Part shown: one piece after another, positions 3,915-47,538 of the stretch
Position numbering within the stretch: position 1 is the first letter of the stretch
Layout: every line of letters begins with the position of its first letter
Notes under the pieces: model-generated
What the model saw: the letters and a program-made list of their open reading frames with translations, nothing else
What the model was told of the DNA's origin: nothing
Databases searched by the model: none
From: Candidatus Magnetocorallium paracelense
GTDB taxonomy: Bacteria > Nitrospirota > Thermodesulfovibrionia > Thermodesulfovibrionales > Magnetobacteriaceae
DNA: 64,000 nt
NCBI GenBank assembly: GCA_029001845.1
Contig: JAREWP010000065.1
Coordinates: 1 to 64,000, forward strand
Reading direction: 5' to 3'
Program-made: the position numbers and the translations under genes

Positions 3915-4300
3915 TTACGACAGTGATTAAGTCTTCTTAATCACTCACGTTAACGTCCTTCAGACGGACTATGGATTTCGGTACGAAGGACAGGCGTGAC
4001 ACCTGTCCTTCGGTTCGTTATTATTTTAAGATTCCTGAACATCCGGTTAAACGGCTGTAACTTCGATTTTTTAACTCCCTCTCTCCCTTTGAAGGGGGAG
4101 AGGGTTGGGGTGAGGGGGTAAGGCTGAAGACTATTAGATAAAACATGCGCTATCGATAAAACTTTTCGTTTTTTTCCAACCCTCACAAATCATTTGATTA
4201 TGTGCTACAGCCTTCAGACTTCAGCCCGAATACCCGAGTAGTTACTTTTTGCCTCTGTGGTCAATCAACGATGCTGTTTATTTTTTCTAATGAGTAATAC
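3915..4300. other. Non-coding stretch after serS with stacked hairpins
   Basis: No gene is supported here. Three palindromes are visible: a 9-bp stem GTGATTAAG/CTTAATCAC with loop TCTT at 3923-3944; an 11-bp stem with arms CGAAGGACAGG and CCTGTCCTTCG at 3984-4012; and a C/T-rich versus G/A-rich inverted pair around 4075-4115. The first could stop serS transcription, although it lacks a U-tract. The others look like dispersed extragenic palindromes. Confidence 0.6.
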
Positions 4301-25211: not shown

Positions 25212-25326
25212 TCCTCTGCGTTCTCTGCGTCTCTGCGTTAAAATAAAAACGTTACGTATATTGATCACGATCCAAAGGACTTTTAACGCAGAGACGCAGA
25301 GAACGCAGAGAACGCAGAGAGAGATG
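25212..25326 (+). repeat. Dispersed repeat family 2, copy 1
   Basis: The left end CTCTGCGTCTCTGCGTTAAA and the right end TTTTAACGCAGAGACGCAGAG are inverted, around a core with AAAAACGTTACGTA. The right end carries several AACGCAGAGA-type units. A second copy in opposite orientation is at 46411-46516. This copy ends about 107 bases before the PKS-B start codon. Between 24996 and this repeat I see no gene. Confidence 0.85.
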
Positions 25327-28400: not shown

Positions 28401-31400
28401 AGGGACCATACGCTGATTCCGGGGGCTTATATGATCGAAATTGGGATCGAAGCTCTGGAACGGGCGATTTCATACCCGGTTCACTCCCTAAAGAACATTG
28501 TATTTAAAAACCCTGGTGTTGTGGATAAAACAATGGATATCACATTAGATATAAACCTGCAAAACCGGCGGTTTACCTTAAAGTCAGGGGCGTTGGACCT
28601 GTGCGAGGGTGAATATAGATATCCGGCCATATTGATCGATTCATCAATCGATACAATGGAGATGACCGGAGAGCCAACGGCGCGGGGAAAAGAGCTCTAT
28701 GAGGCGCTCAACCGGAAGGGATATCACTATGGTGAGGCGCTCCGGGTGATTCAAAACCTGTGGCAGCATGACGATTCATGGATCTTTGAACTGGCCGCAT
28801 CCGAAAACATTAGGGAGAGTGATGTTAATGCGATTCAAATCGCTCAGATGGATGGTATGCTCCAGGCCCTGCTAATGATCGAATATGTGGTGAATAAGAC
28901 CTATGACCATACAGATTCCTTGCACCTCCCCTACATGGTTAAGGCCTTACATCTCAACTGCGCCTACTTACCTGACCGCTGCTTTGTCCGGATTAAGGAG
29001 CGTGATATCCTGAGGCAGGGAGGGGATATCATTGTAACCATTGGGACATACAATGAAAGAGGTGAATGTCTCTGTAAAATAGATAGTGTGGTCTTTAAAC
29101 AGACCGTAAAAGCGGATACTGTGTGGACGCATGATGAGCGTGAACGGCCGGATCAGTTTATTTTATATCGTATCAAAGAGGAACTGGCAGCCATTGTTGC
29201 ACAAAAAATAGACACCAGGCCGGACAAGATCAATCACCGGGAGTCCTTTTTCACCCTGGGGATTGATTCCATTTTGTTAAAGGAAACGATGGGGATTCTT
29301 GAAAAGAAATATGACAATCTGCCCGCCACCCTCTTGTTCGAGTACCCGAACATTGACAAACTCGCTGCGTATTTGAAAGAAAGGCTGGCCCCAAAAGAGA
29401 TCGATCGTTTGACCAGTGAGTTTGGTGCCGCCAACGTCCCAAAAGAGAAGAAAGAGCCGCCAACTCCCCAATCCATAGAGGTGAATGAGCCGGTTGTCGA
29501 AAATGCCGACTCTCCTATCGTCTTTTCGAAGAGTGAACCGAAGCAGTCAGGATATGCCATTGCGATCATCGGCGTGAGCGGGAGGTTTCCAAAATCCCCG
29601 AACCTGGCGGCCTACTGGGACAATCTCATCTCTGGGAGGGACTGTATCGAAGATATCCCCCCTGATCGGTGGAACCATGACCTGTACTTTGACCCTGATC
29701 CTGACAAACCGGATTCCACCTATGGAAAGTGGGGCGGATTTATGACGGATGTGGATAAATTTGACCCCCTGTTCTTTAATATATCCCCCCGAGAGGCCCG
29801 GCAGATGGACCCCCAACAGCGGCTCTTTCTCGAATGTGTGTGGCACACCATGGAAGATGGGGGATACGGGAATAAAAGGCGGTATAGCGATAAAACAGTG
29901 GGTCTGTATGTGGGGATGATGTGGAATGAGTATTCTCAGATCAGCACCCAAAAGGGATTTATGAATCATACCTATGTGGGGCCGGGTTCTCTATATTGGA
30001 TCATCGCCAATCGGGTGTCCTATTTTATGGATTTTAAAGGCCCCAGTATAGCAATCGATACAGCCTGCTCCTCCTCCCTGGCCGCCATCCATCTGGCCTG
30101 CCAGAGTATCTTGAATAAAGAGTCTGATATGGCAATCGCCGGGGGGGTAAATCTGTCTATCCATCCTGAAAAGTATATCTATCTAGCCCAGGGGAGGTTC
30201 CTGTCTAAAGACGGCAGGTGCAGGAGCTTTGGGAGAGGAGGCTCCGGGTATGTGCCTGGCGAAGGCGTCGGAGCGGTACTGTTAAAGCCGCTCTCCCGGG
30301 CGATTCAGGATCATGATCCTGTCTATGCCATTATCCGGGGCACGTCTATCAATCACGGCGGCAAGACCGCAGGCTTTACCGTGCCCAATCCAAAGGCCCA
30401 GTCAGACTTGATTCAGGAGGCCCTTCATCGGGCGAATGTATCGGCCGAGGATCTGAGCTACATCGAATGTCACGGGACAGGCACCTCATTAGGAGATCCT
30501 ATAGAAATTCAGGGCCTTACCGGCGCATTTAGAAAGTATACGGATAAAAATGAATTCTGTCCAATCGGGTCAGTTAAATCAAACATCGGCCACTTAGAGG
30601 CCTCGGCAGGCATTGCCGGTCTGATCAAGATCCTTCTGGCCTTGAAACACGAAGCCATCCCTATCAGCCTGCACAGTGAGGAGAAAAATCCTACCATTGA
30701 CTTTAGTCAAACCCCCTTTTATGTAGTCAATGAGACCATCAAATGGAAATCAGAGGACAAAGGTTCAAGAAAAGCGGGTATCAGCTCATTTGGCGCAGGG
30801 GGGTCGAATGCCCATGCCATAATAGAATCCTTTGAGGAAGATCCTGCTGCTTCTTCCATTTCTCAAGTAATGAGACCCGTTCTGATCCCGATTTCAGCTA
30901 AAAACAGAGAACGTCTCCATGCTTATATCGATTTATTTATCACCTTCTTTTCCGGGAATCCCCAAATCTCCCTTGTAGATGCGGCCTATACCCTCCAAAT
31001 AGGGCGTGAGGAGATGGAAGAACGGGTGGCCCTGGTTGTCTCTGAACCCGCTGAGGTTGTAGAGAAGTTAACTCACTTTCATCAGGGACGCGTTGATGTA
31101 GAGGGTCTGCATTATGGTGCCCCGGAGGGAAAAGGCCCTAAGGGACAAGATCATCTCAAAAGGGCTCTTCATCCCATAGACCTTAAGGCCCTGGCGGAAT
31201 TATGGATCTCCGGTGCAGAGATTGATTGGAATCAACTCTATCCGGATAAAAGCCCCCATACCGTTTCCCTGCCCACGTACCCTTTTGCCGGAGAGCGGTA
31301 TTGGGTGGTAGAGAAAAAAGAGGATTTGGCCTTAACAGACCCTGTTTCTGTCCTACATCCTTTACTGGACACGAATGAATCCACCCTGCAAGAGCAATGC

Positions 31401-34400
31401 TTCCAAAAAACACTCAAGGCAGACCATTTCTATATTAAGGATCATATTGTAAAGGACGACAAAATCCTCCCGGGGGCAGCCTATTTAGAGATGGCGATAA
31501 CGGCCGGGTCCTTATCGAATCGAGAGGTGGCGGTTAACAGGATTTTAAACACCACCTGGCTCAGGCCATTGGTGGTCAGCAAAGACGTTCAAACCGTAAA
31601 AGTCGGCCTCTATCCGGGGGATCAGGACGTCCGTTTTGAGGTCTTTTCTGTCAATGAAGATGGCCAAAGGACGCTCTACAGCCAGGGGGCTCTGGAATAT
31701 ATAAAAGATATCTCCGCCCCGGAGATCCCGGAAAGGGTAAACAGACAGTCCATTATGGATCGATGCCGCCAAACCCTTGACAAGGCGCAATGCTACAAGC
31801 TGTTTAAAGACTATGGGCTTTCTTATGGCCCTGGTTTTCAAGTCATAGAGGAACTTTACATAAACAGTAGTGAGGCGATTTCCAAGCTCATGTTACCCAA
31901 AAATCTCTCCCCTGACTTCTCTCAATACACCCTCCATCCCTCTATTATTGATGGCGCCTTCCAGTCGATTCTTGGCCTCATCGATTTCTCCCAAACCCCT
32001 CAAGGGGTATATGTACCTTATTTACTGGAAGAACTAACCTTTGTCAATCCCCTTACAGAAACAGTTTATGCCTATGTCAGGAAGAGGAGTTCTAAAGAAA
32101 ATGAAAGGGATCGAAAGTTTGACATACAGATCATCGATGAGACCGGCGATCTGCTTATCGACTTAAAAGGGTTGTGGGTACGTTCAATCCTCCCCAAAGA
32201 CGAATCTCTAAATGTTCTGTACTATCAGACGGTATGGGAAACCTTCGAAGTCGATACAACCCCTCAAGATATAACAGGATTAACTTTATTATTTGATCTA
32301 AATGATGAGATATATACTGTATTAAGGGATCTGCTATCAGGACGGGTGATCCGCGTCAAGCCCGGCGCCCGGTATGGAAAGCCGAATGAAACCACCTATG
32401 AAATCAACTCGGAACAGATTGAGGATTATCAACGATTACTATCATCTATTGGAGAATTGCCTGAAAAGATCATCTATCTTTGGGCCTATGAAGAAGACAG
32501 CTTATTTCATCCCGGAGATATAGAAAAACAGTTGGAAACAGGTATCTATGCTCTTTTTCATCTAACCAAATCTTTGACAGGCCAAAGAATATCCAGGGAA
32601 ATTGAGATCCTATGGGTATATAAAGAAGCATTGGGTGATATCCGGCCATGTTATGCAGGTCTGGGAGGTTTTGCCAGAACATTAATAGAGGAAAACCCAA
32701 AACTGAAATGCAAAACCTTAGCCCTGCCTCAACTGAAGGCGCCGGACCTGTCAAGAATGATTATAGCCCAATTGAATCGACCTGACAGAGAGATCGAGGT
32801 AAGGTATACAGAGGATCAGAGATTTGTTAAAAAAGGATTTAAAAAGATTGATTCGATCCCGGAACAAGGCACCCACCTGAAAGAAAGGGGACTCTATATT
32901 ATTACAGGCGGTGCAGGCGGAATAGGGCTGTTATTTGCCGGACATATTATCAACACATCCAATTCCAGAGTTGTTTTAGCAGGCCGTTCAGACCTGAGCG
33001 ATGAAAAAACAGAAGCGATTCAACGCCTGGGACAGGCTGTCTATATAAAGGCGGATGTATCCACCCGGGCCGGTGCTGAAGCACTCATAAAAGAGGTAAA
33101 AACCCGGTACGGCTCGATCAATGGCATTATTCACAGTGCCGGGGTATTAAGGGATTCCCTTTTGGTTAATAAAACAAAGGAAGACCTGGAGACTGTATTA
33201 GGACCAAAGGTCTATGGCGCGGTTTATTTAGATCAGGCAACCAAAGACGAAAACCTTGACTTCTTTGTGCTCTTTTCCTCCATTACAGCCATCCTTGGCA
33301 ATCCGGGACAAGCTGATTATGCCTATGGCAACAGTTTTATCGATGCCTTTGCCATATGGCGGCAAAAGCATCGCAAGGGCAAGACCCTGGCCATCAATTG
33401 GCCGCTATGGGCAGAGGGGGGGATGCATGTCAGCCGGGAGACAATGGCCTGGATGAAAGGGACGCGGGGATTTGTCCCATTGGAAACCTCTTTGGGAATG
33501 AAGGCTTTCTTTGATGGTCTCACCATGACCCACCCCCAGATCATTGTGCTTTCAGGAGATAAAAATAAGATTACAAAGACCATGGAGGGTATCCGTCATC
33601 AACAGCCCGATCATCCACAGGCATCCCTTGAGTTAACAAAAGAGGAAGTGTCTGATTTCAAAGAAAAGGCCCGGGGATATTTAAAGACCCTCCTGTCGAA
33701 ACAGATTGACTTAGACCCGGGCCAGATAAAGGCAGACGAACCTCTCGATCGATACGGCATAGATTCTGTGATGATCATGAGCCTGACAAGGGCGTTAGAA
33801 AAACGCTTTGGGGAGTTATCAAAGACCCTCTTTTTTGAATACCACTCCATAGAGGCCCTGTCAGAATATTTTGTAGAAAATCATAGCCAACAGTTATTGG
33901 AAGAGATGGGGACAGAGCCGCCTGCTAAGGCGCGCCATGACGGATCAGACAGAGGTTTTCGACCAAGATTCACCTATTTATCAAGCAATAGAGCAGCAGA
34001 TAGGGCGGGAGATGAAGGAGCAAAGGCAGAGGAGATCGCCATCATCGGACTGGGTGGAAGGTATCCAAAGGCGGACGATCCGGAAGCCTTTTGGGAAAAT
34101 CTAAAGACCGGAAGAGACTGTATTACCGAGATCCCTGAAACGCGGTGGGATTATCGTGAATACGCGGATTTTGTCAAAGGTAAATGGGGAGGGTTCATTG
34201 ATGACATCGACAAATTTGATCCCCTGTTTTTTAATATATCACCAAGAGAAGCGGACCTAATGGATCCACAGGAGAGGCTTTTCTTAGAGACGGTCTGGCA
34301 TACACTGGAAGATGCAGCGTATACAAAGAGTTCTCTATGGGGAAGAAGTATCGGTGTCTATGTGGGGGTGATGTATGGGGAGTACCAGTTATTAGGCGCA

Positions 34401-37400
34401 GAAGAGACCCTAAAGGGAAACCTCATGGCATCGAGCGCCTCATTCTCCTCCATCGCAAACCGGGTATCCTATTTCCTTAATCTTACAGGACCGAGTATAG
34501 CCATTGACACCATGTGCTCTTCCTCTCTTACCGCCATTCATTTGGCCTGTGAAAGTATCCAAAAGGGTGAAAGCGAGATGGCCATTGCAGGCGGAGTCAA
34601 CCTGTTACTCCATCCTCAAAAATATATCCTCTTAGCCCAAAGCAACTTCCTCTCTTCAGACGGACGGTGTCGAGCCTTTGGCCGGGGAGGAGACGGATAT
34701 GTACCGGGGGAAGGAGTGGGCGCCGTCTTATTAAAGCCCTTGCATAAGGCCATTGGGGATAAAGACCGGATATATGGTGTGATTATGGGTACATCCATTA
34801 ACCATGGCGGTAAGACCAATGGGTTTACCGTACCAAATCCCAATGCCCAGGGCAATGTGATCGCCCGGGCCCTCCGGTCAGCGAAAGTAGATCCCAAGAC
34901 GATCACCTATATGGAAGCCCATGGGACGGGTACGCAACTGGGCGATCCCATCGAGATTACCGGTCTGGGACAGGCCTATAATCAGGCATTTCAGGGGGAT
35001 TACGAGGATACAGGCCGGTGCGCCATCGGATCAGTGAAATCCAACATTGGTCACTTAGAATCTGCAGCCGGCATTGCAGGTTTGACAAAAGTCCTCCTCC
35101 AGATGAAACACCGTCAGATCGTCCCTTCCATTCACTCAGGGACATTAAACCCGAATATCAATTTTTTAAAAACCCCCTTCAAGGTTCAACAGACCCTTGA
35201 AAAGTGGGAGCCTTTGAACCCGGGAGAGCCAAGAACAGCCGGGATTAGCTCATTTGGCGCAGGGGGATCAAATGCCCATGTAATCGTGGCCTCTTTTGAG
35301 GATAGTAGAGAGGTTTATCCACCGACTACAAATAAACCTGTTCTGATTGTACTTTCCGCTAAAAATGAAGAGCGGCTAAAAGTCTATGTGAGGAGACTAT
35401 TAACGTTTATTGATCCTGCTATACCTCTCTCGCAGATCGCCTACACCTTACAGATCGGTAGAGAGGCAATGGAGGAGCGTCTCGCTCTGATTGTGTCAAC
35501 CCATGATGAGTTGAAAGAAAAATTGAGTCAATACGAAGAGGGCCGGACGGATATAGAGAATTATTATAGTGGAAATACTAAGAAGAGTAAGTCCCAAAAT
35601 GATCTTTTAATTGAAGGAGAAGAAGGGAGAGAATTTGTCAGAATTATTGCCAGAGACAGGAGACTCACCAAACTGGCCCGGTTATGGGTCTCAGGCGTAG
35701 AAATCAATTGGGAATTATTATATGGAAGCATGGAAGAAAGGCCCGGAGGGATATCATTGCCCACTTACCCATTTGCAAAAGAGCGTTACTGGGTACCGAC
35801 GTCCTCCCAAAAATTAACGCCAACCATGGCGACAAAGGAACCGGAACGTGACACCATTACCTATATCTCCGATTGGGTGCGCAGTCGGAATAAACAGGTG
35901 GTCTCTGAAGAAGAAAAACCGGATCGTGTCAACTTAGTTGTCTTTAATCCGGAAGGTTTTGATTTCGAACAGACCATTGTATCTAATTATAAAGATTCTA
36001 TAACAATCCGACTTGGCGGTCAGATCCGACAGGTAAGTGACAAGGAGTGGGAAATTGACTTTAGAGACCCGAATGGGTGGGAGAAGATTATTCATGAGAG
36101 TCCCCCCATTTCAACTCTATATTTTTTAGGAGGGTTGTCAAAGCAACACATGGATCAGAGTTTTCCGCCTCTACAACAAGAGCAGGAAATGACAGTAATC
36201 ACCCTTTTTAGATGTATCAAGGCATTGATAAAGGTTGGATATGACCGTCAACCCCTTCATATCGTGGTTCTCACCCAGGATGTGCAGCCCCTGTTTGAAG
36301 GTCAAAGGATCAATCCCCGCTCATCCGCATTAAGTGGTTTTACCCAATCCCTGGCCAAAGAACAGCCCGGATGGCATGTTCGCCATATAGATTTAAGTGG
36401 AGAGGACTTAAAAGATCGGAACCATCACCCGGCTATTCTGAGCCGGATACGTCAGGAAGGGCCTGACCCGGAAGGCATCCCGGTTGCCTATCGACAGGGG
36501 TATCGGTACACGCGACAGATCTATCCGGTATCTCTGCCTAAACCTGACAAGCCGAATATCCGCCGCCAGGGCGTCTATGTCATCCTCGGCGGCGCCGGCG
36601 GACTGGGTCTGGTTTTTAGTGAATATTTCATTAAAACCTATGACGCCAGGATGGTCTGGCTGGGACGCCGGGCTGTTGATAAAACCATTAGTGACCATAT
36701 CGAACGTTTGAGACAATATGGAACCTATCCCCCCTTATATATTCAGGCAGATGGCGGGAGCCCGGAACAGATGTATCAGGCTGTTGTGGAGATAAAAAGA
36801 GCGTATGGTTCAATCAATGGGGTGATTCACTCAGCCATTGTCCTGAAAGACAAAACCCTGGGAATGATGAATGAAACGGAATTCATTGAAGCCTTTTTGC
36901 CTAAAGTTTCAGGCAGTATTAATCTCATTGAGACCTTCCGGGGTGAACCCCTCGATTGGTTCTGCTTTTTCTCATCAGCCCAATCGATATTGTCTGCCCC
37001 GGGACAGAGCAACTACGCAGCAGGATGTACCTTTAAAGACGCCATCGCCAGATCCCTGAGAAGTGTGGCTGACTTCCCGGTTCACATCATCAATTGGGGA
37101 TATTGGGGAGATATCGGTATTGTCGCCACTGATTTTTACCGTCAAGCCATGGCGAATCAGGGGATACACTCCCTCACAATTGAAGAGGGAACCTATATTT
37201 TCGAACAAATGTTTTCCCATCAAATTACGCAACTGATTCCGATGAAACCGGATGACCCGGCAAAGAAAACCATGAAGATCAGAACAACAGAGACCGGAAC
37301 GATTTTCCCTGTACGTCAGCCCTCATATCTAACATCTCTAACTGAAAAGGTAAAGGATAAAAAAGTTGATATCCAACACCTTCTTGAAGAATACCGGATA

Positions 37401-40400
37401 TTTGATGCAGCCTTTCAAGAATTTATTTTAAACGCACTTATCCAAACTTTAAACAGGCTGAGTTGGGATTCATCAACACCTGAAGATACCCTTTCAAGTA
37501 TTCAGGAGCAATTCAACATCATCGATCCATATACCCGATGGTTTCATGAAATCATCAGGCTCCTTAAAGAGCAGGGTCGGGTCGACTCATCGGGAGAAAT
37601 GATTAAGCTGAATTCCTCAGTAAAAGGATCCTCACCCGATTTTAACCTGAAACAACAGTCTGTTGATCTGATAGAGCACTATCCTTTTATGAAAGGACGG
37701 ATAGAACTGGCAGCAGCCTGTTTAGAACATCTGGGTGAGATATTAACAGGGGCTGTCCCTGCCACGGATATATTATTTCCAAAGGGATCGATGAAAGGGG
37801 TAGAGGGGATTTATAAAGACAATCCCATAGCAGATTTCTTTAATAACCGGGTGGCGGACATTGTGGAGCAATTTGTCAGGCTCAGACAAAAAGATTTAGC
37901 TCCTGATCAAAAGATCCGTATCCTTGAAGTCGGCGCAGGTACAGGCGGAACCGGCACCTTTATATTTGAGCGACTTGTGCCGTTTAAGGAGTCTATCGAA
38001 TATACCTATACAGATGTTTCTAAGAGTTTTTTAATTTATGCAGAAGAAAACTATAAAGAAAAGGCGCCTTACCTGAAAACTGCCCTCTTTAACATCGAAG
38101 CGCCCCCTGAAAAGCAAGGTATAAAGGTCAATCATTACGATATGGTCCTGGCTGCAAATGTACTCCATGCCACAAAAAACATGGGCAGCACCTTAATGCA
38201 GGTAAAGGCCGTATTAAAACAGAATGGATTGCTCCTGTTGAATGAATTAAGTCAAAACATGGTCTTTGCTACAGTAACCTTTGGTTTAACAGATGGTTGG
38301 TGGCTCTTTGAAGATGATGAAGTTCGCCTCCCTGGTTCACCCGGATTGTCGTCTGAACAGTGGCGGACCGTATTGTCGGAGCAACGGTTTTATCCGATTG
38401 AATATATTGACACCGATACACGTCAACTGGGGCAGCAAATTATCGTGGCGGAAAATCATGGATGGGTCAGACAGTTTAATGAAACAAGACAATCTGAACA
38501 ACTATCAACCAAACTGCCGGAATCCGACAAAACATCTGAGCAGATAAAAACCGACCAAACCCAATCCCTATTGACACTTAAAGAGCGTATCCGACAGACT
38601 CTAACCCGTATTACTTCCAAGGCTCTGAAAATAGCGGAACAGCATATCGACCCAAGTGAGCAATTTGCTGATATTGGTGTAGATTCAATTATTGGTGTGG
38701 AAATGGTCAGTACCATTAATCAGGAACTCGCTATACATCTACATAGCACGGATCTGTTCAATTATCCCAATATCGGGCGATTAACGGATCATATTGCCAC
38801 AACCTATGAAAAGGAACTTTTCCACCATTTTGGACTATCAAAGGTTCAAGAAATAATAATAAAGGATAACCGTGTAAATGAGAAAGAGCAGATTTCGAAC
38901 AAAATAGGGTTCATGGATCAACAACTTCCCCGAAAGGTGCGATCCCCCCAACCGGATTCAGATCCGATAGACCAAAAAGATCATGAGATTGCCATCATCG
39001 GGATATCCTGTCAATTCGGCGATGCCGGATCAAAGGAAGCCTATTGGCAGGCCCTCAAAGAGGGACGTTCCCTTATCAGGGAAGTACCTGAAGAACGTAT
39101 TCAGCTATGTCCGTCACTTAATCCTGAGGTCTTCTTTCATCCTGAGCCAACTAAAGGAAAAAGTTATAGTAAATGGGGTAGTTTCTTAAACGATATCGAT
39201 CAATTTGACGCCAGGTTTTTTAGTATATCCGGTGTTGAAGCTGAAAATTCCGACCCTCAGCAGCGTATATTTTTGCAGGAATGTTGGAAAGCGATTGAAG
39301 ACAGCGGATATAACCCAAAGGCATTAGGGGAAAGTCGAGTGGGTGTTTATGTGGGCGCCGGTGACGGTGATTATCATCGCGGCCTGGAAGATAAGGGAGA
39401 GCCTTCATCATTTTGGGGAAATGCAGGTTCCATACTTGCGGCGCGTATCTCCTATTTCCTCAATCTAAAAGGCCCGGCCGTTGCCATTGACACAGCCTGT
39501 TCGAGTTCATTAGTTGCCATTCATCTCGGGTGCCAAAGCTTATGGAACAGAGAGACAGACTTTGTCCTGGCAGGCGGCATATACATCCAAACAACCCCAA
39601 AATTTTATATTTTAAGCAGCCAGGCCCGCATGTTATCACCTGATGGTCAATGCTTTACCTTTGATGATCGTGCAAACGGTTTTGTACCGGGTGAAGGGGT
39701 TGGCGTTGTGATGCTGAAAAGACTCAAAGACGCAATCAGGGATCAGGACCCGATCTATGGTGTAATAAAAGGAACAGCCATTAATCAGGACGGGGCAACC
39801 AGCGGCATTACAGCCCCCAATGTTCTCTCTCAAAAGAAGTTAGAACTGGATATCTATCAATCGTTCCATATTAACCCCGGAGAAATTCAATATGTTGAAG
39901 CCCATGGAACAGGAACCAAATTGGGGGATCCCATAGAGATTCAGGCCATATCCGAATCTTTTCAAAAGTATACAAACAAAGGATCCTACTGCGCCATCGG
40001 ATCCGTTAAAACCAATATTGGCCATACATTAGCCGCAGCTGGCGTGGCCGGTCTGATCAAGGTGCTTCTATCGTTAAAAAACAGACAGATCCCCCCATCC
40101 CTTAACCTGGAAACCCATAACCGGCACATCGATTTTAGAGGGAGTCCGTTTTATGTGAACACCCAATTGCAAACCTGGAGAACAGACAAGAATAGCCCTC
40201 GAAGAGCTGCGGTAAGTTCTTTTGGATTCAGCGGTACAAATGCTCATATGGTGATAGAAGAATATCAACAGGAATCCACGAAAGTCCTGCCGTCTTTACC
40301 GGCAATTATCCCCTTATCAGCAAAGACATCGGAATCTTTAACCCGTTACGTCAGCCTGCTGTTGAATTATTTAAAAGAGAATAATGGAGATGATCTTTAT

Positions 40401-43400
40401 GATATGGCCTATACCCTACAGACAGGCAGAGAAGGGATGAACCACCGCATTGCTTTTATGGTGAAAGACTTGAAAGAAGCTAAAGAAAAACTGAGTCAAT
40501 ACCTTAAGGGCAAGGAAGATATCGCCGATTTTTGGCAAGGTGAGACAAAATCCAATTCCGATGGCATGACAATGATTACAATGGACGAAGATGCTCAGGA
40601 AATGGTTCATAAATGGATAGCCAAAGGCAAAATCGATAAACTTGCCGGACTTTGGGTGAAAGGAGTAACCATTGATTGGAACCTCCTTTACAAAGAAGTC
40701 AAACCCCGAAGAATCCACCTGCCCACCTATCCGTTTGCCCAAAAACGGTACTGGATAAGGCCAGCAACGCATCCATTTACGATGCAACCCGGCGTAAAGC
40801 AGATCCACCCACTCCTCCACGAAAATATCTCAACCCTGGAAGGACAACAGTATATCTCAACTTTTGTTGGAACGGAATTCTATCTGCAAGACCACCAGGT
40901 GTTACATGAAAAGGTTTTGCCCGGGGTAATCTACCTGGAAATGGCGCGTGCAGCGGTTGAGATCGCCGGTCCTGACAAGAAAGTCCATAAACTGAAAGAT
41001 ATCCAATGGGCCAGTCCGATCAAAGTAAAGGATGCGCCTCAAAGGGTAACCATCAGCCTGTATCCGGAGACGGAGGGTATTGCCTATGAAGTAACCACAG
41101 AGAAGTCCGATGGTGACGGAGAAGACGATATTCAGGAAGAGGCAACCCTCCACAGCCAGGGTAAGGTTATGATAGGTGAACCACAGACAAGACCGCCTGT
41201 GATGGACATCGAGGCGATCAAGACCAGGTGTACCAGGGAGTTAAATCAATCAACCTGTTACCAAAGGTTTAAAGAAATCGGCATTACCTATGGTCCTGGT
41301 TTTCAGAGGATCAAAGAGCTTCGTTATAATGATCATGAGGTACTGGCAATGATACAGGCGTGGGAATCCGATAATACAGGGTCTTTTTATCTCCATCCCG
41401 GTATATTGGACAGTGCGTTACAGGCCTGTATAGGATTAGAGATGGATCACCTCAAAGGAACAGAGCTTTATGTGCCATTTGCACTGAAAGAGATAGAAAT
41501 TTTCGATAAACCGCCCATGAATAATCCGATTTACGTCCATGTAACCTATGGCAGAGAACAGCAAAATAAGGCGATTAAGACATACAATATCACATTACTG
41601 AATGACCAGGGGCAACCCCTGATACGTTTCGTCGACTTCACAACCCGACAGATGATCGGAGGTGATGAAGACGAAACAGAACGTCAGGGCCGGTTATATG
41701 AAAGCCCTGAATGGCGGAACCGGGAGATAAAAGAGATCGATCTGTTACAGTCATCGGAAAAAGGAGACCATTATCTATTTCTGACAGGCCGGAACGAAAC
41801 AATTAATGAAGTGCTCACATCTGAAATAATTGACATAATGAGCCATATTCTGAAAATTAAAACTGAAGATATTGATATAACAAACGATATCAGTGAGTAC
41901 GGTCTTGATTCAATCATGGAAACAGATTTTGTAAATAAGATCAATGATCACTTTAAACTAAGTTTGATTCCGACCATTTTATATGAACACACCACCCTTA
42001 CCTCATTCATAACCTATCTGATAGAAACGCATAAAGGGGAGATAGAAGAGAAATACAAAAAAGATCATGATGTCAGGGAGACGCCTCATCAAAGGATAGA
42101 CATCAAGGCAACAGATAAAAAGCCTTTGAGGCGTCAACGTTTTATCACCTCTCCTCAGACCAATCCATTGGTTTGGAAAGAACCCATAGCCATCATCGGA
42201 ATGACGGGAATCCTTCCACAAGCAGAAAATCTGGACCAATTCTGGGAAAATCTGAACCGGTCGAAAGATTGTATCACAGAAATCCCCGGGAACCGTTGGG
42301 ATTGGAAAGTTCTTTATGGCGATCCAATGCAAGAAGCGGGGAAAACCAATGTTAAGTGGGGAGGATTTATTGAGGATATCGATAAGTTTGATCCCATGTT
42401 TTTCGGCATCTCACCCCTTGAAGCAGAACTGATGGATCCCCAGCAGCGGCTGTTTCTCCAATGCGTCTGGCATACCATTGAACATGCAGGCTACAACCCA
42501 AGGGGACTGAGAGGCAGTCAAACGGGTCTCTTTGTGGGTGTGGAAACCCAGGACTACGCGGATCTGTTGATCCAAAACCAAATACAAACCGAGGCATACG
42601 TAGCAATAGGCCTGGCCCTTTCCATCGTAGCCAACCGTATCTCATTTTTATTGGACTTCCACGGCCCCAGTGAGCCGATTTCAACGGCCTGTTCCAGTTC
42701 ATTGGTAGCGATCCATCGGGCCGTTCGGGCGATTCGCCAGGGCGATTGTACCCAGGCCATTGCAGGCGGTGTAAATGCGATTCTGAGCCCGAAATTATCC
42801 ATCAGTTTCAGCAGGGCAGGCATGCTCTGTGAAGATGGCCGATGCAAGACATTTTCAGATAAGGCCAATGGTTATGTCAGAGGAGAGGGTGTAGGAGCGA
42901 TCCTGCTGAAGCCCCTGAGCCGGGCGGAAAAAGATGGAGATCGAATCTACGCCCTGATTAAAGGGAGTGCGGAAAACCATGGCGGTCATGCAAATTCCCT
43001 TACAGCACCCAACCCTACGGCCCAGGCCGATCTATTAAAGGCCGCTTATCAGGATGCGGATGTGCCTCCTGATACCGTTACTTACATTGAAACCCACGGT
43101 ACAGGAACCGCATTAGGGGATCCCATTGAGATTAACGGCTTAAAAATGGCATTTACATCGCTTTATGAGGCCTGTCATCTCGCCCTCCCTGAGGCGCCCC
43201 ATTGCGCCCTGGGGTCTGTGAAGAGCAATATCGGTCATTTAGAAACAGCGGCAGGGATTGCAGGCGTACTGAAAGTCATCTTGTCAATGGGGCATAAAAC
43301 CATACCTGAATCATTGCACTGTGAGACCATCAATCCCTATATTGATCTCAAAGATACACCCTTTTATATTGCCCGTGAAAAACAGGAGTGGACAAGCCTT

Positions 43401-45005
43401 AAAGACAGCCGGGGCAACACTTTGCCCCGAAGAGCCGGTGTCAGCAGTTTTGGTTTTGGCGGTGCTTATGCCCATATTGTCCTTGAGGAATACCTTACCC
43501 CTCAAGGTCTGGACATAGAGAGACCGGGGGTAAATCAGAGGGTGGTCATTCCCCTTTCAGCAAAAAACAGGGTGCAACTGCAAGATTATGCCAGATTATT
43601 CATTGATTACCTTCATCATAAAGAAAACAAAAAAGATTTAGGTGATATGGCCTATACATTACAAACAGGTAGAGAAGCAATGGAAAGCCGCATCGCATTT
43701 TGGGTTGAAAACCTTAACCAACTCGAAGAAAAACTGGCCCAATATCTGAAGGGTGAGCAAAACATCGCCGATTTCTGGCAAGGTGAGGTGAAAACCGGAC
43801 CAGATAGCGTTACCGTCCTCTCTGTGGACGAAGATGCACGGGAAATGGTAGACAAGTGGATCGTCAAAGGCAAAATCAATAAACTTGCCGAAATTTGGGT
43901 GAAAGGATTCAACATTGATTGGAATCTCCTATATAAAGAAGTCAAACCCGGAAGGATCCCCCTGCCGACCTATCCATTTGCCAAAGAGCGGTATTGGATA
44001 CCGGAGACTGCTCAAAACAATAAGATACAAACAGGCATAAAACAGATTCACCCGCTTTTACATGAAAACACCTCAACCCTGGAAGAACAGCAATTTACCT
44101 CCACATTCACCGGAACGGAATTCTATCTAAAAGACCATCAAGTATTAAATGAAAGCGTTTTACCTGGTGTAATCTACTTAGAAATGGCTCGCGCCGCGGT
44201 CGAACGATCCGGCAATAATATGAGAGTCCATAAACTGAAAGATATTGTATGGACCACTCCTGTAAAGGTGAATTGCGATCCTCAAAGAGTAAGCATCAAC
44301 CTCTATCCCGAGCCTGACGGAATTGCCTATGAAGTGATCACAGAGAAAACCGATGTTGCCGGAGATGAAGAGATTACCTTACACAGCCAGGGAAAAGTAA
44401 TTATTGGAGAATCCAAAACAAGTCCGCCTGATATTGACATCCCGGCAATTAAGGCACGTTGCTCTAACACCTTCACTCCTGAAACCTTTTATCGGACTTT
44501 CCAGGAATTAGGTATCACCTATGGTCCCGGTTTTCAGGGAATCAGGGAACTTGTATACAACGACGATGAAACTCTGGCGATGATACAGGCAGGGCAATTA
44601 GAAAACTCAGACTCTTTTTATCTCCACCCCGGTCTATTGGACAGTGCGTTACAGGCCTGTATAGGGTTAGGGATTGACGGACTTCAAGAAACTGGACCTT
44701 ATGTGCCATATGCACTTAAAGAGATAGAAATTTTTAATAAGCCGATCATGGATGACCCGATTTACGCCCATGTAACCTACAGTAAGAGTCAACAGAGTAA
44801 GGAGATCAGGAAATACGATATCACTTTAGTAAATGATCAGGGGGAAACTCTGGTACGTTTTATTGAATTCACAACCCGACAAATGATAGTCGAAAAAAGA
44901 AATGATGATGAAATCAACCGTTTGATAATAGATGTTAAATCCGCTGATATCTCCCCCAATGAGGCTGCGGTGATATTTAATGAAAGGTATGATATTAAGG
45001 AATAG
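25434..45005 (+). CDS. Trans-AT type I polyketide synthase PKS-B, five modules with cMT
   Basis: 6,523 residues. Module 1: KS 1-428 (Cys173 in ACAAS), ~550-residue insert with an AT-like segment whose active-site motif is GERDG (638-642), degenerate DH (H987, Gly-to-Asp; D1140), ACP Ser1279. Module 2: KS ~1373-1798 (Cys1545), DH (H2004, D2173), KR (Tyr2629), ACP Ser2778. Module 3: KS ~2867-3290 (Cys3028), KR (Tyr3861), C-methyltransferase (EVGAGTGG at 4165), ACP Ser4418. Module 4: KS ~4517-4944 (Cys4689), DH (H5154, D5326), ACP Ser5493. Module 5: KS ~5583-6019 (Cys5753), DH (H6235, D6403), then a short helical tail VKSADISPNEA. All KS domains keep both histidines. There is no intact AT, no ER and no TE. 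The missing final ACP is probably supplied by the N-terminus of PKS-A. No strong SD precedes the ATG, but KS homology starts at residue 3, which fixes the start. Confidence 0.96.
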   Translation: MKKDIAVIGIACRFPGASNYHEYWLNLLEGKNSIREIPPDRWSLEDFYSPDIEEPNRSISKWCGIVEGIDLFDNKFFSISPREAKSMDPQQRLLLEETWRCIEDSGVSLTTLQSHKTSVFVGVMSSDYSQGMSAAGLVTDSYSTIGNYDAILSNRISYALGFNGTSLTINAACAASLVALHNAKAALRTGESDFSIAAGVNLNTSPLKYISFSKARMLSPDGRCKTFDKDANGYVPGDGIGVVLLQPLEDALKDGNHIYGIIKGSAVNHGGQALTITAPKVEAQQEVILNAYKDAEIRAETVTYVEAHGTGTSLGDPIEVEALTRAFRQYTEEKHFCYIGSVKTNIGHLEGAAGIAGIIKVLLMMQASKIAPTLNIRTLNPVILFDESPFLIASTLEDWVTREKELPLRAGVSSFGFGGVNAHAIVEDFPIMKARALREKRKKAKRGQMFMLPAGDGISGDFSDHKGRSPDYLFMISGKTPKALSQLIDAWKGFIERDSFYEFCLQDICATLMTGRESYACRHGCRIHTKSELIDFIKNTPPVMNKTIEEIPCSLRLGNMTFNGFEGFLPFIHEISLFNIKLQETINRFDKVLSQEIKKNLKKPVWPKDKQRLFSFLTAYTSIATIMETGFKPSLIFGERDGLLLSLTLSGMVCVEDVVFLLEGSKKLHQIKLKPPDIPFYDPLSKENIMPFHFTGDYLKSLIRGLELPDEVFRANQMQALLLKESQPTFKKFLNEWNLPLNTSAGRDMDSLLNKDALATQSDTLPEKGRLLLMLIIDSCRCMLDRKWDLTRKQSIADPGYHELLDLLIDGVLTKEDVINLCEGKDNNLDTIAKSMNRNHHFFNKTRPYGMIRKEHQNLSVIPDMDEWFHQIKSMKTPSLPSPEHMGCIEFGEFSEPVKSAKSLKIPEIHIHTFKDTLLYLWLNHVDIAWHMVYPEGSFEKVSLPVYEFDRASFWLNREVNQEKEDKRQRLRDSLTISPTAPLITSHVIRDHTLIPGAYMIEIGIEALERAISYPVHSLKNIVFKNPGVVDKTMDITLDINLQNRRFTLKSGALDLCEGEYRYPAILIDSSIDTMEMTGEPTARGKELYEALNRKGYHYGEALRVIQNLWQHDDSWIFELAASENIRESDVNAIQIAQMDGMLQALLMIEYVVNKTYDHTDSLHLPYMVKALHLNCAYLPDRCFVRIKERDILRQGGDIIVTIGTYNERGECLCKIDSVVFKQTVKADTVWTHDERERPDQFILYRIKEELAAIVAQKIDTRPDKINHRESFFTLGIDSILLKETMGILEKKYDNLPATLLFEYPNIDKLAAYLKERLAPKEIDRLTSEFGAANVPKEKKEPPTPQSIEVNEPVVENADSPIVFSKSEPKQSGYAIAIIGVSGRFPKSPNLAAYWDNLISGRDCIEDIPPDRWNHDLYFDPDPDKPDSTYGKWGGFMTDVDKFDPLFFNISPREARQMDPQQRLFLECVWHTMEDGGYGNKRRYSDKTVGLYVGMMWNEYSQISTQKGFMNHTYVGPGSLYWIIANRVSYFMDFKGPSIAIDTACSSSLAAIHLACQSILNKESDMAIAGGVNLSIHPEKYIYLAQGRFLSKDGRCRSFGRGGSGYVPGEGVGAVLLKPLSRAIQDHDPVYAIIRGTSINHGGKTAGFTVPNPKAQSDLIQEALHRANVSAEDLSYIECHGTGTSLGDPIEIQGLTGAFRKYTDKNEFCPIGSVKSNIGHLEASAGIAGLIKILLALKHEAIPISLHSEEKNPTIDFSQTPFYVVNETIKWKSEDKGSRKAGISSFGAGGSNAHAIIESFEEDPAASSISQVMRPVLIPISAKNRERLHAYIDLFITFFSGNPQISLVDAAYTLQIGREEMEERVALVVSEPAEVVEKLTHFHQGRVDVEGLHYGAPEGKGPKGQDHLKRALHPIDLKALAELWISGAEIDWNQLYPDKSPHTVSLPTYPFAGERYWVVEKKEDLALTDPVSVLHPLLDTNESTLQEQCFQKTLKADHFYIKDHIVKDDKILPGAAYLEMAITAGSLSNREVAVNRILNTTWLRPLVVSKDVQTVKVGLYPGDQDVRFEVFSVNEDGQRTLYSQGALEYIKDISAPEIPERVNRQSIMDRCRQTLDKAQCYKLFKDYGLSYGPGFQVIEELYINSSEAISKLMLPKNLSPDFSQYTLHPSIIDGAFQSILGLIDFSQTPQGVYVPYLLEELTFVNPLTETVYAYVRKRSSKENERDRKFDIQIIDETGDLLIDLKGLWVRSILPKDESLNVLYYQTVWETFEVDTTPQDITGLTLLFDLNDEIYTVLRDLLSGRVIRVKPGARYGKPNETTYEINSEQIEDYQRLLSSIGELPEKIIYLWAYEEDSLFHPGDIEKQLETGIYALFHLTKSLTGQRISREIEILWVYKEALGDIRPCYAGLGGFARTLIEENPKLKCKTLALPQLKAPDLSRMIIAQLNRPDREIEVRYTEDQRFVKKGFKKIDSIPEQGTHLKERGLYIITGGAGGIGLLFAGHIINTSNSRVVLAGRSDLSDEKTEAIQRLGQAVYIKADVSTRAGAEALIKEVKTRYGSINGIIHSAGVLRDSLLVNKTKEDLETVLGPKVYGAVYLDQATKDENLDFFVLFSSITAILGNPGQADYAYGNSFIDAFAIWRQKHRKGKTLAINWPLWAEGGMHVSRETMAWMKGTRGFVPLETSLGMKAFFDGLTMTHPQIIVLSGDKNKITKTMEGIRHQQPDHPQASLELTKEEVSDFKEKARGYLKTLLSKQIDLDPGQIKADEPLDRYGIDSVMIMSLTRALEKRFGELSKTLFFEYHSIEALSEYFVENHSQQLLEEMGTEPPAKARHDGSDRGFRPRFTYLSSNRAADRAGDEGAKAEEIAIIGLGGRYPKADDPEAFWENLKTGRDCITEIPETRWDYREYADFVKGKWGGFIDDIDKFDPLFFNISPREADLMDPQERLFLETVWHTLEDAAYTKSSLWGRSIGVYVGVMYGEYQLLGAEETLKGNLMASSASFSSIANRVSYFLNLTGPSIAIDTMCSSSLTAIHLACESIQKGESEMAIAGGVNLLLHPQKYILLAQSNFLSSDGRCRAFGRGGDGYVPGEGVGAVLLKPLHKAIGDKDRIYGVIMGTSINHGGKTNGFTVPNPNAQGNVIARALRSAKVDPKTITYMEAHGTGTQLGDPIEITGLGQAYNQAFQGDYEDTGRCAIGSVKSNIGHLESAAGIAGLTKVLLQMKHRQIVPSIHSGTLNPNINFLKTPFKVQQTLEKWEPLNPGEPRTAGISSFGAGGSNAHVIVASFEDSREVYPPTTNKPVLIVLSAKNEERLKVYVRRLLTFIDPAIPLSQIAYTLQIGREAMEERLALIVSTHDELKEKLSQYEEGRTDIENYYSGNTKKSKSQNDLLIEGEEGREFVRIIARDRRLTKLARLWVSGVEINWELLYGSMEERPGGISLPTYPFAKERYWVPTSSQKLTPTMATKEPERDTITYISDWVRSRNKQVVSEEEKPDRVNLVVFNPEGFDFEQTIVSNYKDSITIRLGGQIRQVSDKEWEIDFRDPNGWEKIIHESPPISTLYFLGGLSKQHMDQSFPPLQQEQEMTVITLFRCIKALIKVGYDRQPLHIVVLTQDVQPLFEGQRINPRSSALSGFTQSLAKEQPGWHVRHIDLSGEDLKDRNHHPAILSRIRQEGPDPEGIPVAYRQGYRYTRQIYPVSLPKPDKPNIRRQGVYVILGGAGGLGLVFSEYFIKTYDARMVWLGRRAVDKTISDHIERLRQYGTYPPLYIQADGGSPEQMYQAVVEIKRAYGSINGVIHSAIVLKDKTLGMMNETEFIEAFLPKVSGSINLIETFRGEPLDWFCFFSSAQSILSAPGQSNYAAGCTFKDAIARSLRSVADFPVHIINWGYWGDIGIVATDFYRQAMANQGIHSLTIEEGTYIFEQMFSHQITQLIPMKPDDPAKKTMKIRTTETGTIFPVRQPSYLTSLTEKVKDKKVDIQHLLEEYRIFDAAFQEFILNALIQTLNRLSWDSSTPEDTLSSIQEQFNIIDPYTRWFHEIIRLLKEQGRVDSSGEMIKLNSSVKGSSPDFNLKQQSVDLIEHYPFMKGRIELAAACLEHLGEILTGAVPATDILFPKGSMKGVEGIYKDNPIADFFNNRVADIVEQFVRLRQKDLAPDQKIRILEVGAGTGGTGTFIFERLVPFKESIEYTYTDVSKSFLIYAEENYKEKAPYLKTALFNIEAPPEKQGIKVNHYDMVLAANVLHATKNMGSTLMQVKAVLKQNGLLLLNELSQNMVFATVTFGLTDGWWLFEDDEVRLPGSPGLSSEQWRTVLSEQRFYPIEYIDTDTRQLGQQIIVAENHGWVRQFNETRQSEQLSTKLPESDKTSEQIKTDQTQSLLTLKERIRQTLTRITSKALKIAEQHIDPSEQFADIGVDSIIGVEMVSTINQELAIHLHSTDLFNYPNIGRLTDHIATTYEKELFHHFGLSKVQEIIIKDNRVNEKEQISNKIGFMDQQLPRKVRSPQPDSDPIDQKDHEIAIIGISCQFGDAGSKEAYWQALKEGRSLIREVPEERIQLCPSLNPEVFFHPEPTKGKSYSKWGSFLNDIDQFDARFFSISGVEAENSDPQQRIFLQECWKAIEDSGYNPKALGESRVGVYVGAGDGDYHRGLEDKGEPSSFWGNAGSILAARISYFLNLKGPAVAIDTACSSSLVAIHLGCQSLWNRETDFVLAGGIYIQTTPKFYILSSQARMLSPDGQCFTFDDRANGFVPGEGVGVVMLKRLKDAIRDQDPIYGVIKGTAINQDGATSGITAPNVLSQKKLELDIYQSFHINPGEIQYVEAHGTGTKLGDPIEIQAISESFQKYTNKGSYCAIGSVKTNIGHTLAAAGVAGLIKVLLSLKNRQIPPSLNLETHNRHIDFRGSPFYVNTQLQTWRTDKNSPRRAAVSSFGFSGTNAHMVIEEYQQESTKVLPSLPAIIPLSAKTSESLTRYVSLLLNYLKENNGDDLYDMAYTLQTGREGMNHRIAFMVKDLKEAKEKLSQYLKGKEDIADFWQGETKSNSDGMTMITMDEDAQEMVHKWIAKGKIDKLAGLWVKGVTIDWNLLYKEVKPRRIHLPTYPFAQKRYWIRPATHPFTMQPGVKQIHPLLHENISTLEGQQYISTFVGTEFYLQDHQVLHEKVLPGVIYLEMARAAVEIAGPDKKVHKLKDIQWASPIKVKDAPQRVTISLYPETEGIAYEVTTEKSDGDGEDDIQEEATLHSQGKVMIGEPQTRPPVMDIEAIKTRCTRELNQSTCYQRFKEIGITYGPGFQRIKELRYNDHEVLAMIQAWESDNTGSFYLHPGILDSALQACIGLEMDHLKGTELYVPFALKEIEIFDKPPMNNPIYVHVTYGREQQNKAIKTYNITLLNDQGQPLIRFVDFTTRQMIGGDEDETERQGRLYESPEWRNREIKEIDLLQSSEKGDHYLFLTGRNETINEVLTSEIIDIMSHILKIKTEDIDITNDISEYGLDSIMETDFVNKINDHFKLSLIPTILYEHTTLTSFITYLIETHKGEIEEKYKKDHDVRETPHQRIDIKATDKKPLRRQRFITSPQTNPLVWKEPIAIIGMTGILPQAENLDQFWENLNRSKDCITEIPGNRWDWKVLYGDPMQEAGKTNVKWGGFIEDIDKFDPMFFGISPLEAELMDPQQRLFLQCVWHTIEHAGYNPRGLRGSQTGLFVGVETQDYADLLIQNQIQTEAYVAIGLALSIVANRISFLLDFHGPSEPISTACSSSLVAIHRAVRAIRQGDCTQAIAGGVNAILSPKLSISFSRAGMLCEDGRCKTFSDKANGYVRGEGVGAILLKPLSRAEKDGDRIYALIKGSAENHGGHANSLTAPNPTAQADLLKAAYQDADVPPDTVTYIETHGTGTALGDPIEINGLKMAFTSLYEACHLALPEAPHCALGSVKSNIGHLETAAGIAGVLKVILSMGHKTIPESLHCETINPYIDLKDTPFYIAREKQEWTSLKDSRGNTLPRRAGVSSFGFGGAYAHIVLEEYLTPQGLDIERPGVNQRVVIPLSAKNRVQLQDYARLFIDYLHHKENKKDLGDMAYTLQTGREAMESRIAFWVENLNQLEEKLAQYLKGEQNIADFWQGEVKTGPDSVTVLSVDEDAREMVDKWIVKGKINKLAEIWVKGFNIDWNLLYKEVKPGRIPLPTYPFAKERYWIPETAQNNKIQTGIKQIHPLLHENTSTLEEQQFTSTFTGTEFYLKDHQVLNESVLPGVIYLEMARAAVERSGNNMRVHKLKDIVWTTPVKVNCDPQRVSINLYPEPDGIAYEVITEKTDVAGDEEITLHSQGKVIIGESKTSPPDIDIPAIKARCSNTFTPETFYRTFQELGITYGPGFQGIRELVYNDDETLAMIQAGQLENSDSFYLHPGLLDSALQACIGLGIDGLQETGPYVPYALKEIEIFNKPIMDDPIYAHVTYSKSQQSKEIRKYDITLVNDQGETLVRFIEFTTRQMIVEKRNDDEINRLIIDVKSADISPNEAAVIFNERYDIKE

Positions 45006-45721: not shown

Positions 45722-45958
45722 ATGAAAACCGCCATATCGATTCCGGATAGTACCTATGAGTCAGCAGAAGAGCTGGCGAAACGTTTAAGCATATCAAGGA
45801 GCGAGCTGTATACAAAGGCGATATCCGCTTATATCAAAGAACATCGGGGAGACAGGGTTACAGAGATTTTAAATGAAATATACGATACCGGATCGTCTTC
45901 AATCGATTCGGACATTCAAAAATTACAATTTGCTTCTCTGGCAAAAGATGAATGGTAA
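45722..45958 (+). CDS. Ribbon-helix-helix antitoxin, MazE/ChpI-like
   Basis: 78 residues. N-terminal beta strand and two helices (KTAISIPDSTYESAEELAKRL, SISRSELYTKAISAYIKEH) form an RHH DNA-binding domain. The acidic tail should wrap the toxin. Its stop overlaps the start of the MazF/PemK-like toxin by 7 bases. An inverted repeat over the promoter just upstream is the likely operator. The antitoxin itself looks intact although its toxin is frameshifted. Confidence 0.88.
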   Translation: MKTAISIPDSTYESAEELAKRLSISRSELYTKAISAYIKEHRGDRVTEILNEIYDTGSSSIDSDIQKLQFASLAKDEW

Positions 45959-46336
45959 TCAGACGAGGCGATATCTGGTGGGCGTCGCTGCCGGAACCTG
46001 TAGGCTCGGAACCCGGATATCGACGTCCTCTGCTAATTATCCAGTCCGATGGTTTTAACCGTAGTTTAATCAATACGGTGATAGCTATTGTAATCACCAC
46101 AAATCTTCAACTTAAAAAAGCCCCGGGCAATGCATACTTACCTTCCTAAAGATACCGGACTTCCAAAAAATTCAGTTGCAAATATTTCTCAAATAATCAC
46201 TATCGATAAATCATTTTTAACTGAGAGGGCCGGAAAGATAACGGCAAACCGGTTGTGGCACATAGAGGAAGGCATACGACTGCTACTTCTTTATAATAGT
46301 AAAAATAAGAATTTAAGGAAGAAATGGTTGCCCTAA
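45952..46336 (+). pseudogene. MazF/PemK-family mRNA interferase toxin, frameshifted
   Basis: The first frame reads VIRRGDIWWASLPEPVGSEP, GYRRPLLIIQSDGFN, INTVIAIVITTN and GNAYLP, then hits a stop. The second frame continues with KDTGLPKNSVANISQIITID, KSFLTERAGKI and a C-terminal helix. Together they make a full ~115-residue MazF/PemK fold, so one extra base near 46140-46146 has split the gene. Loss of the second half removes part of the dimer interface and RNA site, so the toxin should be inactive. A sequencing error is the main alternative. Confidence 0.85.
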
Positions 46337-46410: not shown

Positions 46411-46516
46411 TCTTCTCTGCGCTCTCCGCGTTCTCTGCGTTAAAAGTCTTTTTGGATCGTGTATCGATGTACGTAACGTTTTTATTTTAACGCAGAGACA
46501 CAGAGGACACGGAGGA
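46411..46516 (-). repeat. Dispersed repeat family 2, copy 2 (inverted relative to copy 1)
   Basis: Read on the minus strand it matches copy 1 through CTCTGCGTTAAAATAAAAAC, a GTTACGTA core, GATCCAAA and TTTTAACGCAGAGA, with small differences. It lies at the far side of PKS-B and the toxin-antitoxin debris, in the opposite orientation. Confidence 0.85.
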
Positions 46517-46601: not shown

Positions 46602-47033
46602 TCATAGGTTTTCATTTAGGTAAGATTTTTCAAGCTGATGAATCAACGACTGAGTTCGCTTACCTAACAATCGCATTAGGTTAAGGGCCTGTTCCGGCTG
46701 GTTTAGATACCTGGTGAGAAAAGCGCTTTTTGATAAAACCATCAACTGCGCGTTCGTCACAGCTACAATATCCGCTGAACGAGGCTCATCGGTCAGCAAT
46801 GCAAGTTCTCCAAATATATCCCCTTCACTTATTTTACCGATTACTTGATTTGTTCTGGCTGCTATGACTTCAGCGGTTCCATCAATCAGTAAAAATGCTT
46901 CCTGTCCGATTGTTCCTGCCTGTATAATCGTTTCTCCTTCCTGGTAAAACCAACGTTCATAGTCAAGAATGAAATCAAAAATCTGGTTCTGTTTGATGAA
47001 CTGTAGAAAAAAAATCATTAAAATCAATGACAT
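46602..47033 (-). CDS. Cyclic nucleotide-binding domain protein, probably the second half of a broken fusion
   Basis: 143 residues forming a CRP-like cNMP-binding beta-roll: YQEGETIIQAGTIGQEAFLL, then ISEGDIFGELALLTDEPRSA with the phosphate-binding GELAL...RSA cassette, then a C-terminal helix. No helix-turn-helix DNA-binding part is present. Its first ~20 residues overlap the end of the acyltransferase gene in another frame. Removing one T from the T8 run at the junction would join the two into a single protein reading DFFLQFIKQNQIFDFI. It is therefore best seen as the regulatory C-terminal domain of that enzyme. Confidence 0.8.
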   Translation of the reverse strand: MSLILMIFFLQFIKQNQIFDFILDYERWFYQEGETIIQAGTIGQEAFLLIDGTAEVIAARTNQVIGKISEGDIFGELALLTDEPRSADIVAVTNAQLMVLSKSAFLTRYLNQPEQALNLMRLLGKRTQSLIHQLEKSYLNENL

Positions 47034-47538
47034 TCAACAACAACGGCAGCATCGGAACTCCTGTGTGGGGTTCAATAAATTCATCGCCCAGAGCTACAAA
47101 TCCGATGCGTTTTAATAACCTGGCGATCTTTGGATTAATAGGGGCGACTATATGAGTAACTCCCTGTGAAACTGCGTAATATGCGCTCATCAAAGTCAGT
47201 CCCGCCGTCAACCTGGAAGAACGATGCTCACCTGATATGCAAAAGTATCCGATATGCATTAAGTTGCTGTTTTCAGGTAGGTGCTTACGAAAATCGTAAT
47301 ACTCATCCGCCGGTAATCCTTCAGAGGAATCATGAACCATACGTAATGTTCCTACAACTTTATCTTTTGTTGTTAATATTAATATCCTGGTTGTGGGATA
47401 GGCGTCGAACCGATCAAAGAGTCTGCCCTCTGTAGTTGCCTTGAGCAGACCTTCTTCCTCGGCAAAGACATGATGACGCAGTTTAAAAGAGTTATCCACC
47501 AAGTCTGTCGTATCGGCAAGTTTGATTTTAAAAGACAT
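46975..47538 (-). CDS. GNAT-fold N-acyltransferase, N-acyl amino acid synthase (FeeM)/autoinducer-synthase-like
   Basis: 187 residues with an autoinducer-synthase/FeeM pattern: SFKLRHHVFAEEEGL at the N-terminus, VVGTLRMVHDSSEGLPADEYYDF, IGYFCISGEHRSSRLTAGL, then GVTHIVAPINPKIARLLKRIGF. Family members join an acyl group from acyl-ACP to an amino acid or similar acceptor to give signalling lipids. The frame ends at HQTEPDF just after a run of eight T (A on the plus strand), where a cyclic-nucleotide-binding domain continues in another frame. Product and acceptor are unknown. Its closeness to the PKS genes is suggestive only. Confidence 0.8.
   Translation of the reverse strand: MSFKIKLADTTDLVDNSFKLRHHVFAEEEGLLKATTEGRLFDRFDAYPTTRILILTTKDKVVGTLRMVHDSSEGLPADEYYDFRKHLPENSNLMHIGYFCISGEHRSSRLTAGLTLMSAYYAVSQGVTHIVAPINPKIARLLKRIGFVALGDEFIEPHTGVPMLPLLLNVIDFNDFFSTVHQTEPDF

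Follow-up and report, generated by a model that had tools for sequence, protein, structure and literature searches.

Enzymes of the FeeM type take a fatty acyl chain from acyl carrier protein and attach it to an amino acid, and they resemble autoinducer synthases. Craig, Cherry and Brady are said to have described, in 2011, N-acyl amino acid synthases linked to PEP-CTERM/exosortase systems. Fusion of a cyclic-nucleotide-binding (CNB) domain to an acyltransferase is familiar from mycobacteria, where MtKat (Rv0998) and MsKat (MSMEG_5458) combine a CNB domain with a GNAT protein acetyltransferase and are activated by cAMP (PMC5861322). The FeeM protein of known structure (2G0B) is 198 aa long and lacks a CNB domain, whereas the protein considered here carries one at its C terminus. 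Among the papers searched, none described a fusion of FeeM to a CNB domain or to CRP.

The split frame and its fused homologues

In the window, that is, the whole 64,000-nucleotide stretch of Candidatus Magnetocorallium paracelense DNA that was analyzed, a FeeM frame and a CNB frame share 59 nt, and within this overlap the coding strand has eight T in a row. The first-pass annotation had placed the overlap at this run, and the ORF coordinates and the position of the run agree with it. The features are as follows.

46975..47538, minus strand: ORF of 187 aa, the half predicted to be an N-acyl amino acid synthase of the FeeM type (Pfam FeeM, PF21926)
46602..47033, minus strand: CNB half, ORF of 143 aa (Pfam cNMP_binding, PF00027)
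47007..47014, minus strand: T8 run (A8 on the plus strand), site of the frame break, read from the sequence
46773..46814, minus strand: phosphate-binding cassette FGELALLTDEPRSA, with G243, E244, R253 and A255 invariant
46605..47538, minus strand: joined reading of both halves (P0001, 311 aa), the putative ancestral protein

When one T is removed, the two ORFs become a continuous reading of 311 residues that runs ...DFNDFFLQFIKQNQIFDFI... across the join. The final codons of the FeeM ORF, past the T run, lie outside the ancestral frame, which the CNB half joins at the run. The earlier proposal that seven T would give a continuous protein thus stands, although its length of ~320 residues was a slight overestimate.

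Both domains are found in a single intact ORF in Planctobacterium marinum (L071, 315 aa) and in genome G1080 (L138, 311 aa). The joined window reading aligns with the P. marinum protein at 48.5% identity over 307 aa (E 4e-117), gapless at the join, and with the L138 protein at 36% over 304 aa. Identity to L071 is 47% in the FeeM part, 51% in the CNB part, and 53% in the 30 junction residues, which can be read as one stretch only with a frame switch at the T run. At the same site, L071 has GAC TTT TTT GTC, and its frame is unbroken. Given the end-to-end alignment with intact fusions and the 53% identity of the junction, the joined reading is, judged by sequence comparison, not due to chance.

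Ten further genomes hold a longer fusion of ~400 aa, in which FeeM–CNB is followed by a C-terminal part; the joined window reading matches these ten loci at about 24–32% identity over ~290–320 aa. Because the match of the long-form profile to CRP structures extends across the winged helix (profile 200–387), the long form is taken as FeeM joined to an entire CRP-like protein. In the window and in P. marinum, the short form stops after the C-helix of the CNB domain, and the DNA-binding part occurs only in the long clade.

The first-pass annotation had proposed that a single FeeM–CNB protein is split between the two ORFs. It named fused homologues as one check and, as signs to the contrary, separate-gene homologues or unanimous A8 reads together with a Shine-Dalgarno sequence for the second gene. 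Fused homologues were found (L071, L138, and the ten longer forms), the alignment with the intact short fusions runs from end to end without a gap at the join, and neither separate-gene homologues nor a Shine-Dalgarno sequence was seen. If the locus instead comprised two genuine overlapping genes, one for a synthase and one for a separate CNB protein, the CNB ORF could start at either of its in-frame ATGs, at 47033 or 47018. However, the nearest relatives with a CNB domain are fused, the conserved junction is coded across both frames, and no Shine-Dalgarno sequence lies upstream of the FeeM ORF or the CNB ORF (about half of the longer window genes have one). Moreover, among the homologous loci examined, none with FeeM and CNB as separate adjacent genes was seen. 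We reject the separate-gene reading as scarcely credible, largely refuted as it is by the fused L071 and L138. Because intact fusions exist and no separate neighboring CNB gene was seen, we take the fusion to be the ancestral state. The FeeM and CNB ORFs of the window almost certainly share this ancestry as one protein.

Cause and consequence of the frame break

Several origins of the break have to be weighed. One, a systematic homopolymer error of the assembly, is rejected. Across 455 kb of the genome, 190 runs of at least seven bases, including 44 of at least eight, cross open frames, and a screen whose coding score is crude gave a convincing frame switch at only one of them, this T8; 27 runs of this kind lie within intact window genes. 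Indels at runs are thus sporadic. A true mutation and an isolated assembly error are equally compatible with the break, and in either case one +1 indel in the T run is its most likely basis. The CNB frame remains uninterrupted over its full length, so the break appears to be recent.

Other genes in the window are also broken. A ribbon-helix-helix antitoxin and a MazF/PemK-like gene form a toxin–antitoxin pair at 45722–46336, and the MazF-like gene is frame-split too, away from any homopolymer and roughly 0.9 kb from the FeeM–CNB break. A remnant of an N6 DNA methylase, in one frame with an in-frame stop, marks a decaying gene at 24096–24884. These two broken genes suggest real gene decay in the window.

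The account that we favor begins with an ancestral locus in which one gene would have encoded a FeeM-type acyltransferase and then, without a gap, a CNB domain. Once the C-terminal domain had bound cAMP or cGMP, the acyltransferase is predicted to be switched or tuned, in the manner of the mycobacterial CNB–GNAT enzymes. In the window genome, T7 would have become T8, and the enzyme half would leave its frame and stop soon after. The T8 allele would then yield a synthase of 187 aa that has lost its sensor, while the CNB half would go untranslated or be made only weakly by reinitiation. The break itself most likely stems from a recent, sporadic mutation or from an isolated error of the assembly, and in either case would be non-programmed. 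To the joint claim of one two-domain gene and a non-programmed single-base break we assign a probability of roughly 0.85. The window copy would accordingly be named a broken or mis-assembled member of a FeeM–CNB fusion family.

Phase variation would read the same run differently: replication slippage in the T run would toggle the population between T7, encoding a fusion under the control of its sensor, and T8, encoding a free synthase that lacks one. Although the T run sits precisely where the two domains meet and both products would be coherent proteins, a single allele is known, and T8 is short, near the lower limit for slippage. The run in L071 is shorter still (GACTTTTTTGTC), so that the long tract is not conserved, and many T8/A8 runs lie inside ordinary intact genes of the genome. 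Members of the clade with a degraded or absent CNB domain do exist (L109, L135), which would fit a toggle; on balance, we consider phase variation unlikely. In a broader proposal, which we consider quite unlikely, the enzyme makes a lipid signal, slippage in the T run switches its cNMP gating on and off genetically, and it belongs to a larger, as yet undescribed family of FeeM–CNB and FeeM–CRP fusions. Were it true, the family would connect cNMP signaling with signals made of N-acyl amino acids and, through the long forms, with the output of exopolysaccharide.

The T8 allele might also be rescued by recoding, with RNA polymerase slippage or ribosomal frameshifting yielding some full-length fusion. 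A/T runs are prone to slippage and both halves are intact, but the frame would be restored only by the loss of 1 nt or the gain of 2 nt. Slippage during transcription of runs mostly inserts, and deletions at runs occur only rarely in E. coli (PMC5574713). In a large share of genomes, runs of nine nucleotides already show selection against slippage (PMC1088944). Transcriptional rescue is therefore unlikely, as it needs the rarer event, a 1-nt loss. For the ribosome, the site offers neither a stop nor an obvious pause codon that would favor a +1 shift. Rescue by recoding, taken as a whole, is very unlikely, and we retain the single two-domain gene with a non-programmed break as the preferred reading.

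The two predicted domains

By Pfam, the FeeM domain comprises residues 17–168 (about 47035–47490). The FeeM half matches PF21926 with an E value of 5e-29 and 101.5 bits against a cut-off of 27, over profile positions 2–157 of 158; it thus shares the family profile of FeeM (2G0B) at well above the cut-off. It also matches Autoind_synth (E 2.5e-13) and Acetyltransf_5 (E 6.7e-11). Against TIGR03694, the exosortase-associated acyltransferase, the window protein scores 50.3 bits, below the curated cut-off of 111.95. The phmmer match to structure 2G0B is weak (E 0.004), and an AlphaFold model built from two sequences had a mean pLDDT of 52.8, too poor for a fold search. Six residues of this half (L20, R21, V24, D42, D45, and R66) are invariant among the 11 fusion proteins and presumably correspond to the LuxI core by EsaI numbering. 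The positions that we take, by comparison with EsaI, to be the E97/R100 pair of LuxI are H and Y in the window protein, and for this reason its chemistry may differ from that of AHL synthases. Taken together, the sequence matches point to an acyl-amine synthase of the FeeM/LuxI type.

The CNB half matches PF00027 with an E value of 7e-19 and 68 bits against a cut-off of 27.5, has the cassette Glu and Arg of the family, and in the PDB matches the regulatory domains of PKG/PKA as well as SthK and CRP-family proteins. In the numbering of the joined reading, G220, G239, G243, E244, R253, and A255 are invariant among the 11 fusion proteins, and the last four sit in the phosphate-binding cassette. 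No helix-turn-helix follows the CNB domain in the window, where the C-terminal winged helix of CRP/FNR is thus absent. With 19 class III cyclase domains encoded in its genome, the host likely makes cyclic nucleotides. We infer that cAMP or cGMP would be the ligand of the predicted CNB domain. Control of the enzyme by a cyclic nucleotide is likewise predicted, from the conserved residues and by analogy with the known CNB-regulated enzymes.

Distribution, gene neighborhoods and known systems

Neither a sample of 100 relatives of the genome nor 395 genomes of the phylum contained a close relative of the window FeeM, and the window gene was therefore likely acquired horizontally. Scans of viral contigs and a first scan of genome contigs found no relative, and a plasmid search returned matches to CNB or AHL-synthase only. 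A natural FeeM alignment proved too divergent as a query; P. marinum L071 was found with a designed alignment, three rows of which were invented purely as a search pattern. Three loci (L044, L046, and L067) have a FeeM/GNAT-like domain fused to an aminotransferase-like domain that is itself about 350–400 aa long. Being without CNB, they were set aside.

A FeeM-domain tree places the window sequence with L071, L138, L109, and L135 in one clade (support 100/100), and the long forms and L110 make up a separate clade (100/100). L109 is of similar length, but its C-terminal half is degenerate and gives no cNMP match in Pfam. L135 is FeeM alone, the nearest to the window FeeM (about 55%), at a locus near a contig end. 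The sensor so appears to have been lost or degraded more than once. Such clade members indicate that a sensor-less synthase, like that expected from the T8 allele, is in principle viable.

The neighborhoods of the fusions fall into recurring patterns. In P. marinum, G918, G994, and G1080, homologous methyltransferases of the LCM family, 40–42% identical to one another, adjoin the FeeM gene (Pfam LCM is shown for three, TIGR00027 for L071). This recurrent pairing of an LCM-type methyltransferase gene with one for a FeeM-type synthase lies at 4066–5948 of L071, 6196–8036 of L138, 7506–9318 of L109, and 5832–7442 of L110. The adjoining methyltransferase suggests methylated N-acyl amino acids as products; Roseovarius is a known source of methyl esters of such compounds (PMC11580390). 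Long-form genes adjoin an XrtA/PEP-CTERM exopolysaccharide (EPS) operon in four genomes (L091, L092, L099, and L101), with the XrtA EPS genes TIGR03027, 03007, 03018, 03016, and 03015 as neighbors; the NCBIfam names are shown for L101, and the other three loci are assigned by homology to it. A PrsT-like TPR protein (PrsT, TIGR02917) lies near the long-form genes in several genomes. At these four loci, a synthase and a cNMP-type regulator lie in one chain next to the EPS operon.

The window gene has neither an LCM methyltransferase nor an XrtA operon as a neighbor; the host genome has one distant methyltransferase homologue elsewhere and three exosortase-family matches on other contigs. Also in the window is a single modular polyketide synthase ORF of 6523 aa (25434–45005), intact over 19.6 kb. 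An intergenic inverted repeat (TCTCTGCGTTAAAA / TTTTAACGCAGAGA) occurs at 46432–46498 and again at 25230–25294, and its core has 5 matches against 0.27 expected.

A synthase with its own cyclic-nucleotide sensor would tie the state of a second messenger directly to the production of a diffusible lipid, and in the sister clade a synthase carrying a whole CRP-like regulator would make the same link. Set beside the PEP-CTERM/exosortase-linked synthases, the long-form fusions likewise lie by XrtA EPS genes, whereas the window gene is outside any such cluster. Compared with CRP/FNR regulators, the long forms match both the CNB domain and the winged helix, but the window and P. marinum forms have no DNA-binding part. 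The window protein shares with MtKat and MsKat a design in which a GNAT acyltransferase is joined to a CNB domain, although the order of domains is reversed, CNB coming first in the mycobacterial enzymes (PMC5861322). MtKat and MsKat, moreover, acetylate proteins, whereas the window protein would, by sequence, be an acyl-amine synthase of the FeeM/LuxI type.
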